Source of the DNA: Arthrobacter sp. 135MFCol5.1
GTDB lineage: Bacteria; Actinomycetota; Actinomycetes; Actinomycetales; Micrococcaceae
Direction of reading: 5' to 3'
Length of the DNA stretch: 64,000 nt
Assembly: GCF_000374865.1 (NCBI RefSeq)
Contig: NZ_KB895468.1
Location: 1 to 64,000 of the forward strand
Below, in pieces: positions 29,381 to 64,000 of the stretch. The notes beneath the pieces are model-generated. The model was not told the origin of the DNA and did no database searches. It was given only the letters and a program-made list of their open reading frames with translations. A program made the translations under genes and the position numbers. Position 1 is the stretch's first letter; each line of letters opens with the position of its first letter.

Positions 29381-29432
29381 CCGGCGTTGGCTGGGAGAAG
29401 CCCTGAGGCAGCGCGCCGCCCTTGACTTCCGT

Positions 29433-29448
29433 TCGAACATGTCTTCGA
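29433..29448 (+). promoter_or_regulatory. LexA (SOS) box in the radical SAM gene promoter
   Basis: TCGAACATGTCTTCGA differs from the actinobacterial consensus TCGAAC-N4-GTTCGA at one position. A -35 TTGACT (29422-29427) and a -10 TCGAAT (29445-29450) are 17 bases apart, and the box covers the spacer and the -10. The -10 ends 7 bases before ATG 29458, so the mRNA is probably leaderless. Confidence 0.72.
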
Positions 29449-29457
29449 ATGGAGGCC

Positions 29458-30555
29458 ATGAGATGGGAAGCACAGGCTTTGGTTCCGACCCCCGAAACTG
29501 CCAGTGGGGCTGCTCCGGCATTGCTGCCGCTGGCCGGCCTGGTCCGGTCCGTCACCACTCCCGAGTTCGCCGGCATCACGTTCCATGAGGTCACCGCAAA
29601 ATCGGTGCTCAACAGGGTCCCGGCGGGGTCCAGGATGCCTTTCGAATGGACGGTGAACCCCTACCGTGGTTGCAGCCACGCCTGCGTGTACTGCTTTGCC
29701 AGGAAGTCCCACACGTATTTGGATTTCGACGCCGGCATGGACTTCGACAACCAGGTGGTGGTTAAGGTCAACGCGGCGGAAGTGCTGCGCAAGGAAGTGA
29801 ACAAGGCGTCCTGGACGCGCCAGCAGGTGGCGCTTGGCACCAACACCGACCCCTATCAGCGGGCCGAGGGACGGTACCGCCTCATGCCGGGCATTATCTC
29901 CGCCCTGGCGGACTCCGGCACTCCCCTGTCCATCCTCACCAAGGGCACGTTGCTGGCGCGGGACATTCCCCTGTTGAAAAGTGCTGCCACGCAGGTGCCG
30001 GTAGGCCTGGGAATCTCGCTGGCCATGACCGATGAGGCCCTTTCGGAAGCCATCGAGCCCGGCACACCCGGGCCCAGGGCGCGGCTGAGGCTGGTGTCCC
30101 GGCTGCGCGAAGCCGGGCTCCCGTGTGGGGTGATGGCCATGCCCATCCTGCCGTGGCTTTCCGACAGTGACGAAGCCCTGGATGCTCTCTTCGGCTCCCT
30201 GGCGGCCGCGGGCGCAACGGGAGTCACCGCGGGTGCCCTGTACCTGAAGCCCGGGACCAGGGAGTGGTTCATGAAGTGGATCGCAGCCCACCACCCCGAA
30301 CTGGCGGGACGCTACCGGCGGCTGTACGGGACGGGGTCCTACGCTTCCAAGGAGTACCGCACCTGGCTGGCCGCCAAGGTCCGGTACTTCAAGGCACGCC
30401 ACGGTTTCTCGCATTCCTCCGGCTTCAGCCACCGGGACCTGGACGATCCCCGCGCCGAGGAAGCGCAGTACCCCGCCGGCAGCATCCCCGCCCCGGCTAC
30501 AGAGGGCACCGCGGGGGTTCCCGCCCGGCCTTCGCAGCAGGACGCCCTCTTCTAG
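29458..30555 (+). CDS. Rv2578c-type radical SAM protein, SOS-regulated
   Basis: A 365-aa radical SAM enzyme of the Rv2578c family, distantly like spore photoproduct lyase. The iron-sulfur motif C-x3-C-x2-C is CSHACVYC after TVNPYRGC. NTDPYQRAEGRYRLM and the C-terminal GSYASKEYRTWLAAKVRY are family hallmarks. The reaction is not known; a DNA-damage function is plausible. MRWEAQ at 29458 matches family N-termini; ATG 29449 is an alternative. A LexA box lies directly before it, and the M. tuberculosis counterpart is, as I recall, on the published LexA target list. The C-terminal 35 residues are Pro/Ala-rich and variable. Confidence 0.85.
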   Translation: MRWEAQALVPTPETASGAAPALLPLAGLVRSVTTPEFAGITFHEVTAKSVLNRVPAGSRMPFEWTVNPYRGCSHACVYCFARKSHTYLDFDAGMDFDNQVVVKVNAAEVLRKEVNKASWTRQQVALGTNTDPYQRAEGRYRLMPGIISALADSGTPLSILTKGTLLARDIPLLKSAATQVPVGLGISLAMTDEALSEAIEPGTPGPRARLRLVSRLREAGLPCGVMAMPILPWLSDSDEALDALFGSLAAAGATGVTAGALYLKPGTREWFMKWIAAHHPELAGRYRRLYGTGSYASKEYRTWLAAKVRYFKARHGFSHSSGFSHRDLDDPRAEEAQYPAGSIPAPATEGTAGVPARPSQQDALF

Positions 30556-43288: not shown

Positions 43289-43304
43289 TAGAACACATAT
43301 TCGA
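43289..43304. promoter_or_regulatory. LexA box on the LysM side of the lexA-LysM divergent region
   Basis: TAGAACACATATTCGA matches TCGAAC-N4-GTTCGA with two mismatches, and lies 117 bases before the LysM start. No convincing -35/-10 pair could be fixed on the minus strand. The whole 353-base intergenic region is noticeably AT-rich in its middle. Confidence 0.6.
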
Positions 43305-43396: not shown

Positions 43397-43525
43397 GGAA
43401 ACCAAGAACAACCACCACTGAAGTTGAACAGCAGGGTCTGACAATGACAGCGGTGACCCTTCACGCAACGCCGGCCTACGGCGTGGGGCGGAAGATCCGG
43501 CGGCAAGCGAAAGGCATTGGCGAAC

Positions 43526-44254
43526 ATGGCAGCAGCAGCCGCCGGGGGCAGGACGGCCCCGCAACCAAAGAGGACTCCGAAGGGGCTTACCCCGCGGCAG
43601 AAGAAGATCCTCGAGACCATCCAGCGGTCCGTCAATGACAACGGCTACCCGCCCTCAATGCGCGAGATCGGCGACACGGTGGGCCTTGCGAGCTTGTCCA
43701 GCGTGACCCATCAGCTGTCCCAGCTGGAGAAGCTGGGCTACCTCCGGCGCGACCCGAAGCGGCCGCGAGCCATGGAGGTGCTCATGCCCCTCACGCTTGA
43801 CGGCGGCGGCGGGGAGCCGATTGCCGCCTCAGCGCCGCAGACACCCGGCGCCACCGTAACGGAGCTGCCTACCGCGCTGGACACCGCCATGGTTCCGCTC
43901 GTGGGCCGGATTGCCGCCGGCGGTCCCATCCTCGCCGAGCAGCTCGTTGAGGATGTCATGCCGCTCCCCCGCCAACTTGTGGGCCAGGGTGAACTGTTCA
44001 TGCTCAAGGTGGCCGGGGACTCCATGGTGGACGCCGCCATCTGCGACGGAGACTGGGTCGTGGTGCGCCGCCAGGCGGACGCCGTCAACGGTGATATCGT
44101 CGCTGCCCTGCTCGATGACGAAGCAACCGTCAAGACCTTCCGCCAGCGGGACGGCCACACCTGGCTGCTCCCGCAGAACACGCAGTACGAACCCATCCTG
44201 GGCGACCACGCGACCATCATGGGCAAAGTGGTTTCGGTGCTGCGGTCCCTCTGA
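43526..44254 (+). CDS. lexA: LexA repressor
   Basis: SOS repressor, about 242 aa. The N-terminal winged helix ([36 protein letters not shown]) binds SOS boxes. The C-terminal S24 peptidase-like half has the self-cleavage site Ala-Gly in GRIAAGGPI, the Ser in [10 protein letters not shown] and the Lys in EATVKTF. Activated RecA, also encoded in this window, triggers cleavage. ATG 43526 or TTG 43517 (closer to GAAAGG) could be the start. Convergent with dinG. Confidence 0.96.
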
Positions 44255-53061: not shown

Positions 53062-54117
53062 CTAGAACCCGTCGACGGCTTTCAGCTTGGGCGTGTCCTT
53101 GGACTCGTCCTCCGCCGGCTTCACGCCCACACCGAGTTTCTCCTTGATGAGGCGCTCCAGTTCGGCGGCAAGCTCGGGGTTGTCGCGGAGGAACCGGCGC
53201 GAGTTCTCCATGCCCTGGCCCAACTGGTCGCCATCGTACGTGAACCAGGAGCCGGACTTCTTGATGATGCCGTGCTCGACGCCCATGTCGATAATGCCGC
53301 CTTCGCGGGAGATGCCCTGGCCGTAGATGATGTCGAACTCGGCCACCTTGAAGGGCGGGGCCATCTTGTTCTTTACGATCTTGGCCTTGGTCCGGTTGCC
53401 GACCGAATCAGCGCCTTCCTTCAGGGTCTGGATGCGCCGGACGTCGATGCGGACCGACGCGTAGAACTTCAGCGCCTTGCCACCGGTGGTGGTTTCGGGG
53501 GAACCGAAGAACACGCCGATCTTTTCGCGGAGCTGGTTGATGAAGATGGCGGTGGTCTTGGTCTGGCTCAAGCGGCCGGTAATTTTACGCAGTGCCTGGC
53601 TCATGAGCCGTGCCTGGAGGCCAACGTGGCTGTCGCCCATGTCGCCTTCGATTTCAGCACGCGGAACCAGGGCGGCGACGGAGTCGATGACGACGATGTC
53701 CAAGGAGCCGGAGCCCACCAGCATGTCCATGATTTCCAAGGCCTGTTCACCGGTGTCCGGCTGCGAGACCAGCAAGGCGTCGGTATCCACGCCGAGCTTC
53801 GCGGCATAGTCCGGGTCCAGGGCGTGCTCGGCGTCGATGAAGGCAGCGATGCCACCCAGCCGCTGGGCGTTGGCAACGGCGTGCAGTGCCACGGTGGTCT
53901 TACCTGACGATTCCGGCCCATAGATCTCCACCACACGGCCACGGGGCAGCCCGCCAATGCCCAGGGCGACGTCCAGGGCAATGGACCCGGTAGGGATGAC
54001 TTCGATGGGGGCACGGACTTCGTCGCCCAGGCGCATCACCGATCCCTTGCCGAACTGCTTGTCAATCTGGGCAAGTGCTGCTTCCAGCGCTTTTGCACGA
54101 TCCGGGGCTGCCGCCAT
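53062..54117 (-). CDS. recA: RecA recombinase
   Basis: Forms the strand-exchange filament and activates LexA cleavage. The 351-aa product starts [18 protein letters not shown] 54117 has AGAGGTG 6 bases upstream and fits family length, whereas an upstream ATG (54174) lacks an RBS. Walker A is GPESSGKTT, Walker [10 protein letters not shown], and loop L2 lies around [13 protein letters not shown] LexA box sits 143 bases upstream. No intein is seen. Confidence 0.98.
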
Positions 54118-54259
54118 GGTTGACACCTCTAATGCTTTCTCGATGGTGGCCTGTGCGGCCGTCTTGTTGGTCATCTCTGACGCTAAGGGGACCCACTGAC
54201 ATTCCGGCCTCAGGACATCGGCTATGTGGATAAACCCAATAGAAAGAGCATAGCGTTAT

Positions 54260-54275
54260 CCGAACAGGTATTCGA
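54260..54275 (-). promoter_or_regulatory. LexA box of recA
   Basis: On the minus strand TCGAATACCTGTTCGG matches TCGAAC-N4-GTTCGA with two mismatches. A possible -35 TCGAAT (54275-54270) and -10 TATGCT (54252-54247) are 17 bases apart, with the box across the -35 and spacer. A leader of about 125 bases would precede recA. Confidence 0.68.
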
Positions 54276-61840: not shown

Positions 61841-62749
61841 TCAGGAGAAGACCAGCCCAGCTTCCGCCAAATCCCCGCGGATGGTTTCGATCTCGGTTTC
61901 GTCCGGCTCCACGAGGGGCAAACGGACAATCGAGTTGGGCAGGACTCCCTGCCATTTAAGAATCTGCTTGGCCGCCACGGCCCCCTGGACGCGGGTCATG
62001 GTTGCCCGGACCACCGGCTGGAGTTCAACGTTGATCTTCCGGGCGGTGCCGAGGTCGTTGGCGTTGACGGCGTCGATGAGTTCGCGGAAGCGGCGCGTGG
62101 CCACGTGGGTGGTGACGCCCACCAGTCCGACGGCGCCCAGCGCCATCCACGGCAGGGTCAGTCCGTCGTCGCCGGAGTAGAAGAGGAGGTCGGTTTCGGC
62201 CATGACCCGGGTTGCCGCAACGAGGTCCGCCTTGGCGTCCTTGACGGCCACAATGTTGGGGTGCTGGGCCAGCCGGATCATGGTGTCGGGTTCGATCGCG
62301 ATGGAGGACCGGCCCGGAATGTCGTAGAGCATGACCGGAACGTCCACGGCGGAGGCGACGGTCTCGAAGTGGGCGCGGACACCGGCCTGGCTCGGCTTGT
62401 TGTAGTAAGGGGTCACCAGGAGCAGTCCGTCGACGCCGAGGGCAGCGGCCTGCTTGGACAGGTGGACCGAGTGGGCTGTGTCGTTGGTGCCGGTACCGGC
62501 AATGATCGCGGCGCGGCCACCGACTGCGTCTTTCACCGCGCGGAACATGCCGAGGTTCTCTTCGTCGGTCAGGGTTGAGGTCTCACCGGTGGTGCCGGTG
62601 ACCACCAGCCCGTCGCAGCCGTCGTCGACGAGCTTGCTGGCCAGCGCAGCCGCCTGGTCGTAGTCCACTGCGCCGTCCTTGGTAAACGGCGTGACCATGG
62701 CGGTCAGGAGGGTACCGAGGGCAGGGATGTGCGCGGAAGAATCAGCCAT
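61841..62749 (-). CDS. dapA: 4-hydroxy-tetrahydrodipicolinate synthase
   Basis: Condenses pyruvate with aspartate semialdehyde at the entry of lysine/DAP synthesis. The 302-aa TIM barrel has GTTGETSTLTDEE, the Tyr-containing TPYYNKPSQ and the Schiff-base Lys in IVAVKDAKAD. On the minus strand TAACGT lies 8 bases before the ATG, so the mRNA may be leaderless. First gene of the dapA-rnj pair. It supplies lysine, the likely monomer of the synthetase at 18-22 kb, though the two loci are not linked. Confidence 0.96.
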   Translation of the reverse strand: MADSSAHIPALGTLLTAMVTPFTKDGAVDYDQAAALASKLVDDGCDGLVVTGTTGETSTLTDEENLGMFRAVKDAVGGRAAIIAGTGTNDTAHSVHLSKQAAALGVDGLLLVTPYYNKPSQAGVRAHFETVASAVDVPVMLYDIPGRSSIAIEPDTMIRLAQHPNIVAVKDAKADLVAATRVMAETDLLFYSGDDGLTLPWMALGAVGLVGVTTHVATRRFRELIDAVNANDLGTARKINVELQPVVRATMTRVQGAVAAKQILKWQGVLPNSIVRLPLVEPDETEIETIRGDLAEAGLVFS

Positions 62750-62807: not shown

Positions 62808-63188
62808 TCAAACAGCCTGGCTGCCGGGCCCCGGCGCGTCTGTTCCGGCGTGGCAATAGCGGCCGACGGCGGCCTGCCGGAGGTCCTCCGCCCAGGCAGC
62901 GAGCCGCTGCGCGGCCCGCACGTAATGGAACAGCTCGGTGGGCGTCAGGGCATCGATATCCGTCTCGGACAGCCGCCGGGCGAGTTCCGCCCCCTCCGGC
63001 TGGGCCGCGAGGGCGATGCCTTCCCGCTCCCACTGGAGGTCCTCTGACGGCCGCCCGGACACCAGCTGCCGGAACAGGTAGTCCACCACGCCCGGACTCA
63101 TTGCCCTCAGCGGCAGGTTGACTGAGTGGGTATGTGCCGGCTGCAGGCTTTCCCGCCGGGCGGGGATTCCGGATGATGGCGTGTCCAT
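62808..63188 (-). CDS. small SOS-controlled protein, DUF222-like fragment
   Basis: A 126-aa protein of unsure family. The central helix region IDALTPTELFHYVRAAQRLAAWAEDL resembles the N-terminal DUF222 part of actinobacterial HNH endonucleases (13E12 family), but no HNH domain follows; it ends after GPGSQAV. It may be a stand-alone domain or a remnant. ATG 63188 sits 6 bases after a -10, fitting a leaderless transcript under LexA control. Some 13E12 proteins of mycobacteria are, as I recall, also LexA targets. Convergence of promoter and motif makes it likely to be functional. Confidence 0.6.
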   Translation of the reverse strand: MDTPSSGIPARRESLQPAHTHSVNLPLRAMSPGVVDYLFRQLVSGRPSEDLQWEREGIALAAQPEGAELARRLSETDIDALTPTELFHYVRAAQRLAAWAEDLRQAAVGRYCHAGTDAPGPGSQAV

Positions 63189-63194
63189 TCCGCC

Positions 63195-63223
63195 ATGTTA
63201 TTCGAACATATATTCGAACACAA
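63195..63223 (-). promoter_or_regulatory. SOS promoter with LexA box in the spacer
   Basis: On the minus strand a -35 TTGTGT (63223-63218), a 17-base spacer and a -10 TAACAT (63200-63195) are clear. The spacer contains the LexA box TCGAATATATGTTCGA (63217-63202), one mismatch from consensus. The ATG at 63188 starts 6 bases after the -10, so the mRNA should be leaderless and tightly controlled by LexA. Confidence 0.75.
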
Positions 63224-63320: not shown

Positions 63321-64000
63321 ATGACGTCCCGCACCCCGGCCACCCGGTCGCGAAAGGCCCCCGGGCGGAACCAGCCGGGCCGTCTTCGCGGCATCGATGC
63401 AGCGCGGGGCCTCGCCCTTCTGGGCATGATGGCCACGCACCTGCTGCCAACGTTCGAGTCGAACGCCAACCTCACCCCGACCTGGATCGGCCTCACCTTC
63501 TCCGGACGGGCCGCGGCCCTCTTCGCCGTGCTGGCCGGGGTGGGACTTGCCCTGTCCACCGGAAAGCACCAGCCGCTGTCCGGTCCCGATCTCGCGAAGG
63601 CCCGCCGCGGCGTGGCGCTGCGTGCCGTGGTGATTGCCGCCGTCGGACTTACCCTGGGCGGCTTGGAAGTGAACGTGGCCGTCATCCTGGTCCATTACGC
63701 CGTGTTGTTCCTTTGCGTACTGCCCTTCCTGGGCCTGGGCGCCAAGGCCCTGTGCGCCTGGGCCGCGGGCTGGATCCTTGGGTCGCCCGCGCTGGCCTAC
63801 CTGCTGCGCCCCTGGCTCCTTGCCGCTGAGCCGCCACTGAAGCTGGGCCACAACCCGCGGTGGGAGGACCTGGGCACCCCCGGCCAGCTGCTGGGCGACC
63901 TCTTCCTGACCGGCTACTACCCGGTGGTGCAGTGGCTCGCCTACCTGCTGGTGGGCCTGGCCATCGGCCGCCTGGTCCTTGCCAAGGCGCTGGTCCCTGT
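63321..64000 (+). CDS. acyltransferase-like integral membrane protein (DUF1624/HGSNAT-like), cut by window end
   Basis: The first 226 residues of a multi-pass membrane protein. GIDAARGLALLGMMATHLLP is the opening of the heparan-alpha-glucosaminide N-acetyltransferase-like (DUF1624/DUF418) family. Helices then follow around RAAALFAVLAGVGLAL, RAVVIAAVGLTLGGL, VNVAVILVHYAVLFLCVLP and QWLAYLLVGLAIG. Members are thought to move acyl groups across membranes, but few are characterised. ATG 63321 has no strong RBS. The 3' end lies outside the window. Confidence 0.78.
   Translation, partial: MTSRTPATRSRKAPGRNQPGRLRGIDAARGLALLGMMATHLLPTFESNANLTPTWIGLTFSGRAAALFAVLAGVGLALSTGKHQPLSGPDLAKARRGVALRAVVIAAVGLTLGGLEVNVAVILVHYAVLFLCVLPFLGLGAKALCAWAAGWILGSPALAYLLRPWLLAAEPPLKLGHNPRWEDLGTPGQLLGDLFLTGYYPVVQWLAYLLVGLAIGRLVLAKALVP

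Follow-up and report, generated by a model that had tools for sequence, protein, structure and literature searches.

What does a gene for a protein of only 126 amino acids do with a promoter of its own that seems to be built around a LexA site? The question arises near the end of the window (the whole 64,000-nucleotide stretch of Arthrobacter sp. 135MFCol5.1 that was analysed here), where an original prediction, made from the sequence alone, had described a DUF222-like protein without an HNH domain. It proposed that the gene is either the remaining half of a 13E12-type endonuclease or a true small SOS effector. Its coordinates and promoter anatomy were right: a -35-like hexamer, a 17-base spacer that contains the one-mismatch LexA box TCGAATATATGTTCGA, a -10-like hexamer and the ATG are packed together (Table 1). 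Only six bases separate the -10-like hexamer from the ATG, so that, with the transcription start that we infer, the mRNA probably has no leader or almost none. A lone one-mismatch box is close to chance (26 sites in the genome versus 19 for a reversed control pattern), and the evidence therefore has to rest on context and conservation. The pattern TTGTNTTCGAATATNTGTTCGAATA (25 bases, 23 of them fixed), searched with up to three mismatches, is present in 120 of 121 genomes of the genus, against 0 of 121 for its reversed control; the packed promoter arrangement is not due to chance.

Table 1. Features of the window that bear on the small gene and its SOS setting
Feature	Positions	Strand	Remarks
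Radical-SAM-type ORF	29422-30555	plus	Box TCGAACATGTCTTCGA at 29433-29448, directly before a possible ATG; presumably photoproduct-lyase-like
LysM protein with hydrophobic segment	42756-43328	minus	Divergent from lexA
lexA	43517-44254	plus	Expected repressor; SOS-like boxes upstream at 43289 and 43356
recA	53062-54174	minus	One-mismatch box CCGAACAGGTATTCGA upstream, 54260-54275
dapA	61841..62749	minus	Pfam DHDPS, E=1.7e-78; conserved downstream neighbour
Small gene (putative SOS protein)	62808..63188	minus	126 aa; ATG at 63188; ends at 62808, stop included
Coding region for residues 65-113	62850..62996	minus	Strongly conserved; common to DUF222-HNH N-termini
-10-like hexamer TAACAT	63200-63195	minus	TANNAT across the genus
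LexA box TCGAATATATGTTCGA	63217-63202	minus	One mismatch to TCGAAC-N4-GTTCGA; part of the promoter kept in 119 of 121 genomes
-35-like hexamer TTGTGT	63223-63218	minus	TTGTNT across the genus
Divergent neighbour of the small gene, membrane protein	63321..63998	plus	Extends beyond the window; presumably DUF418/acyltransferase-like

The locus could be read in every genome of the 121-genome genus sample. The small protein is matched in all of them as a single-copy gene (in G114 in two pieces), and its promoter has no mismatch in 106 genomes and one mismatch in 13; the short form with this promoter, whose recurrence had been proposed as a check, thus does recur. The exceptions are L116, with four mismatches, and L159 (G073), a contig-end fragment in which the promoter is absent. 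The core of the protein is an open reading frame in 118 of the genomes, and in 117 it is in frame with an ATG 10 to 11 bases past the promoter pattern. L104 (G082) has an open core that is not in frame with the promoter-proximal ATG, while L156 (G030) and L158 (G114) are frame-shifted copies. Frameshifts in related strains had been named as the sign of a decayed gene, but frameshifts or fragments of the core are found at just three loci (L156, L158 and L159). The 44 loci from named Arthrobacter and Pseudarthrobacter, which overlap the 121-genome set rather than adding to it, have a promoter with no mismatch in 38 and one in 6, an ATG 10 to 11 bases on in all 44, and dapA in 43. Of the full sample, 119 loci have dapA downstream in the same orientation (no dapA was found at L042 or L132), and 104 have a divergent membrane-protein gene upstream. 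As a separate observation, L116 (G120) has lost the left half of the promoter and retains an intact gene.

Both the protein and its promoter bear the marks of selection. Among 118 proteins (L156, L158 and L159 were left out), conservation is strong in the core (G25 to C112), which is nearly invariant, while the tail at the N-terminus and the final residues are free to vary. The median pS and pN are 0.66 and 0.15 in the core (600 random pairs) and 0.66 and 0.53 in the tail (370 pairs), which on sequence comparison places the core under purifying selection. Over 117 loci the promoter positions hold approximately 1.7 to 2 bits each, except for the free base after TTGT, compared with at most 0.36 bits at any of positions 3 to 80 upstream, where the background is roughly 0.1. 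Nearly all loci of the genus have TCGAAT instead of TCGAAC as the left arm of the box, so it is the imperfect LexA box itself that is conserved, which suggests a tuned affinity for LexA.

To look beyond the genus, a profile built from 57 proteins was searched against 295 genomes of the family. It matched 38 genomes: 24 from the same genus, nine from g10, one from g119, two from g112, one from g11 and one from g126. In g10 and g119 the matched proteins (10 loci, G504 among them) are short, diverged orthologues, and each has a LexA box before the gene (TCGAA-N6-TTCGA, with no mismatch in nine and one mismatch in one), dapA downstream in 10 of 10 and the divergent neighbour in 9 of 10. In several of them the front helix AMSPGVVDFLFRQLV is missing and what remains is the module around GELARRL..D...L...EL, which is therefore the common denominator. 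The matched proteins of g112, g11 and g126 are long and of the DUF222 type, as Pfam confirms for three of the four (those of g112 and g11). The small protein is confined to few genera and universal in its own genus sample. Single-sequence matches at the level of the order (G505 and G360) were set aside, as their frames do not seem DUF222-like and one match contains a stop.

The surroundings of the gene fit an SOS function. It lies with recA and lexA within about 20 kb of the window, and the TCGAATATATGTTCGA 16-mer occurs again at the umuC operon on contig 9 of the same genome (L060), with a near-identical box before umuDC; the names umuC and umuDC come from a reading of the translations. Given this recurrence, and the kindred boxes at umuDC, lexA, recA and the radical-SAM gene, TCGAATATATGTTCGA is a LexA-type site. 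At the small gene the box overlaps the promoter, the site is kept in the orthologues, and the genome encodes lexA. A study of the Streptomyces venezuelae LexA regulon describes a 16-bp SOS box of the same type and targets that include recA, lexA, translesion polymerases and radical-SAM genes; 'HNH' and 'DUF' have no occurrence in its main text (PMC9380542). On these grounds the small gene very probably encodes a functional protein under LexA control, in line with the 'true small SOS effector' of the original prediction, given that in the genus sample it is universal and single-copy, keeps to one place and evolves under purifying selection.

Identifying the protein proved less direct. Scans against Pfam, NCBIfam, PHROGs and PADLOC returned no family match for the 126-amino-acid ORF, so an HNH catalytic domain is indeed lacking as far as these collections can detect one. 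PF02720, the DUF222 family, is absent among the Pfam families matched by 57 homologues; LysM is likewise absent there and gives no Pfam match in the protein of the window, which also has no membrane match. Weak Pfam matches of single homologues (tPilZ, Enterochelin_N and others) involve at most 4 of the 57 members and were set aside. A sequence search of the PDB gave 0 matches, and a Foldseek search of the PDB with a predicted structure gave none at E<=0.001. The AlphaFold2 model is poor as a whole (mean pLDDT 66.5, pTM 0.41) and is confident only in a short helix (residues 65-75) and a long helix (83-113), with a weaker helix at 32-43; pLDDT is 70-92 in blocks of residues 61-110 and near 90 for residues 71-110. 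Its conservation suggests that the long helix provides a binding surface.

Profile comparison was more informative about ancestry. Aligned by hhalign with seven full-length relatives (A2), residues 45-115 of the small protein match over 71 columns with a probability of 96.9 and E=2e-10, so the search for full-length homologues did lead to DUF222-HNH proteins. The matched region lies just before and at the start of PF02720, and in a subset of these proteins only: the five DUF222 proteins of the same genome (A3) give E=0.82, and the module is not seen in them. With an HMM built from the genus alone, 3 of 60 DUF222 ORFs score at E<1e-5 (L253, L252 and L280), compared with none of 120 reversed or shuffled sequences below E 0.5. 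'DUF222-like' was thus apt for a link to the N-terminal edge of some DUF222 proteins and inaccurate for the family itself: by Pfam the small protein is not a DUF222 member, while the relation of its N-terminal module to the 13E12/DUF222 endonucleases is, at the level of sequence profiles, real. We consider it probable that the small protein shares ancestry with the front module of DUF222-HNH proteins. Unlike these proteins of about 500-800 residues, it is single-copy, occupies a fixed place and has neither a PF02720 match nor an HNH domain; roughly 70 residues are alike, and its conserved front helix falls outside the stretch common to the full-length relatives.

The two best-matching full-length genes, L252 and L253 (both in g112, and the same genes as L249 and L248), also share the promoter layout of the small gene. 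In them, TTGTAT or TCGTAC is followed by a spacer of 17 bases that contains TAGAATATCAGTTCGA or TAGAACTGGTGTTCGA, then by TAGAAT or TAGACT and, after six more bases, by the ATG, a packing like that of the small gene. Boxes with at most one mismatch near a DUF222 start were found in 2 of 30 loci of the family set and 0 of 30 of the genus set, so that none of the other 58 has one; nor do the five DUF222 ORFs of the same genome within 200 bases upstream, and the weaker full-length matches in G702 and G526 have no good box at the start. Since the g112 genes were reached via the small protein's own profile, the coincidence of the two features is striking without being an independent test. Genomic co-occurrence cannot discriminate at all, because PF02720 proteins (1 to 19 per genome) are present in all 121 genus genomes, as is the small protein. 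In one g112 genome (G512) we also noted 18 matches to a DUF222-HNH query, one of them under a LexA-like box.

The relatives thus have SOS links of their own, rather than belonging to a non-SOS family, the finding that would have spoken against the original prediction: two full-length genes have LexA-like boxes, and 13E12 genes appear in the M. tuberculosis regulon. Among the reports on that species, one gives the SOS box and proposes the 13E12 HNH genes as members of a LexA-linked repair route (PMC4181829), another places four 13E12 members in the LexA regulon and ascribes mobile-element characteristics to the family (PMC5005354), and a third finds that five putative HNH endonucleases respond to mitomycin C in a RecA-dependent manner (PMC8151990). 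In M. smegmatis, overexpression of an HNH nuclease kills the cell, according to a source whose accessible text has 0 occurrences of DUF222 (PMC9416677).

The explanation that we favor combines these observations. Bound to the box between the -35 and -10 hexamers, a LexA dimer would block RNA polymerase; DNA damage would lead to cleavage of LexA and to transcription from at or beside the ATG, and the transcript would be translated as a leaderless mRNA. Its product would be a stand-alone helical module like that at the front of an SOS-type branch of DUF222-HNH (13E12-type) nucleases, preceded by a tail of low complexity and lacking a catalytic part, and would most likely act by binding a partner protein through a helix. 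The leading candidates for this partner are the DUF222-HNH proteins, present in every genus genome sampled, whose activity the binding might curb or steer for as long as the chromosome is damaged. The chances that this whole reading of a LexA-repressed, free-standing front module acting by partner binding is correct are about even, and the assignment of DUF222-HNH proteins as the partner is more tentative, somewhat below an even chance; because the DUF222-HNH proteins of the same genome lack the module by profile, direct pairing with them can only be proposed. One specific and rather improbable version is an SOS-induced antidote, in which the free module spoils the assembly or docking of DUF222-HNH nucleases, so that the several chromosomal 13E12-type enzymes would be kept from cutting while damage exposes the genome; in g112, a similar SOS promoter would drive the whole nuclease instead.

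The homology, promoter and co-occurrence data would look identical if the small protein were a positive partner, that is, an adaptor or assembly factor that supplies the module in trans to recruit or activate DUF222-HNH nucleases after damage. Such a role is unlikely, as the full-length relatives have a front region of their own, nothing indicates that the DUF222-HNH proteins of the genus need a separate one, and those of the same genome give no module match. The protein might also have no nuclease role and be a lineage-specific SOS checkpoint protein, halting division or some other process, with the module co-opted for another target. SOS genes that are small, single-copy and lineage-bound often encode division inhibitors, among them SulA, YneA, DivS, ChiZ and SidA, and a protein that is universal in its genus sample and restricted to few genera resembles YneA, DivS, ChiZ and SulA in being small, lineage-bound and apparently LexA-controlled. 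It differs from these in having no LysM or membrane match, and the window already holds the LysM protein divergent from lexA, a likely candidate for the SOS division inhibitor that we take to be of the YneA/DivS/ChiZ type known from actinobacteria and firmicutes. The presence of this natural candidate beside lexA makes the same role less likely for the small gene, and we regard the checkpoint alternative as rather doubtful.

The conserved neighborhood raises the further thought of a leader ORF that couples dapA, and hence diaminopimelate/lysine synthesis, to DNA damage. In 67 of the 119 loci with dapA downstream, it does lie within 430 bases of the small-gene match, but the remaining 52 have it 828-1922 bases away, and in the three wide-gap loci that were read (L173, L191 and L207) the gap is filled by a gene that is presumably nitrilase-like; together with the conservation of the protein sequence itself, this leaves the leader very improbable. 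An inserted gene, which we likewise take to be nitrilase-like, also separates the small gene from dapA at L063 (G504). Least plausible is that the gene is what decay has left of the N-terminal part of a 13E12-type endonuclease and has survived by chance. Only the front part is resembled and HNH is missing, as expected of a remnant, but the core is open nearly throughout the genus with a pN far below its pS, and the ATG and promoter are held at one place across three genera. Conservation, purifying selection and the orthologues beside dapA in two other genera argue that this is not a decayed gene, and so, of the 'remaining half of a 13E12-type endonuclease', the shared ancestry of an N-terminal module stands and the sense of decay does not.

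We found no description of the small gene in the open-licence literature searched. The family is thus an undescribed one that has, in a large soil genus, the constancy of a housekeeping gene; this constancy, combined with an exceptionally conserved SOS promoter, points to a member of the core damage response there that has so far gone undescribed. Given that the 13E12/DUF222-HNH proteins are an abundant actinobacterial group, the small protein would also offer an easily expressed handle on the role of their front module.

Further loci of the same genome merit mention. The genome has two umuC-like genes (L060 and L062), each near a LexA box. At L061 (3369-3384; C3:328868), the LexA box TCGAATATGTGTTCGA directly adjoins the ATG of a 119-amino-acid ORF on the minus strand, which we assume to be DUF6504/imu-operon-like and which is apparently another leaderless SOS gene.
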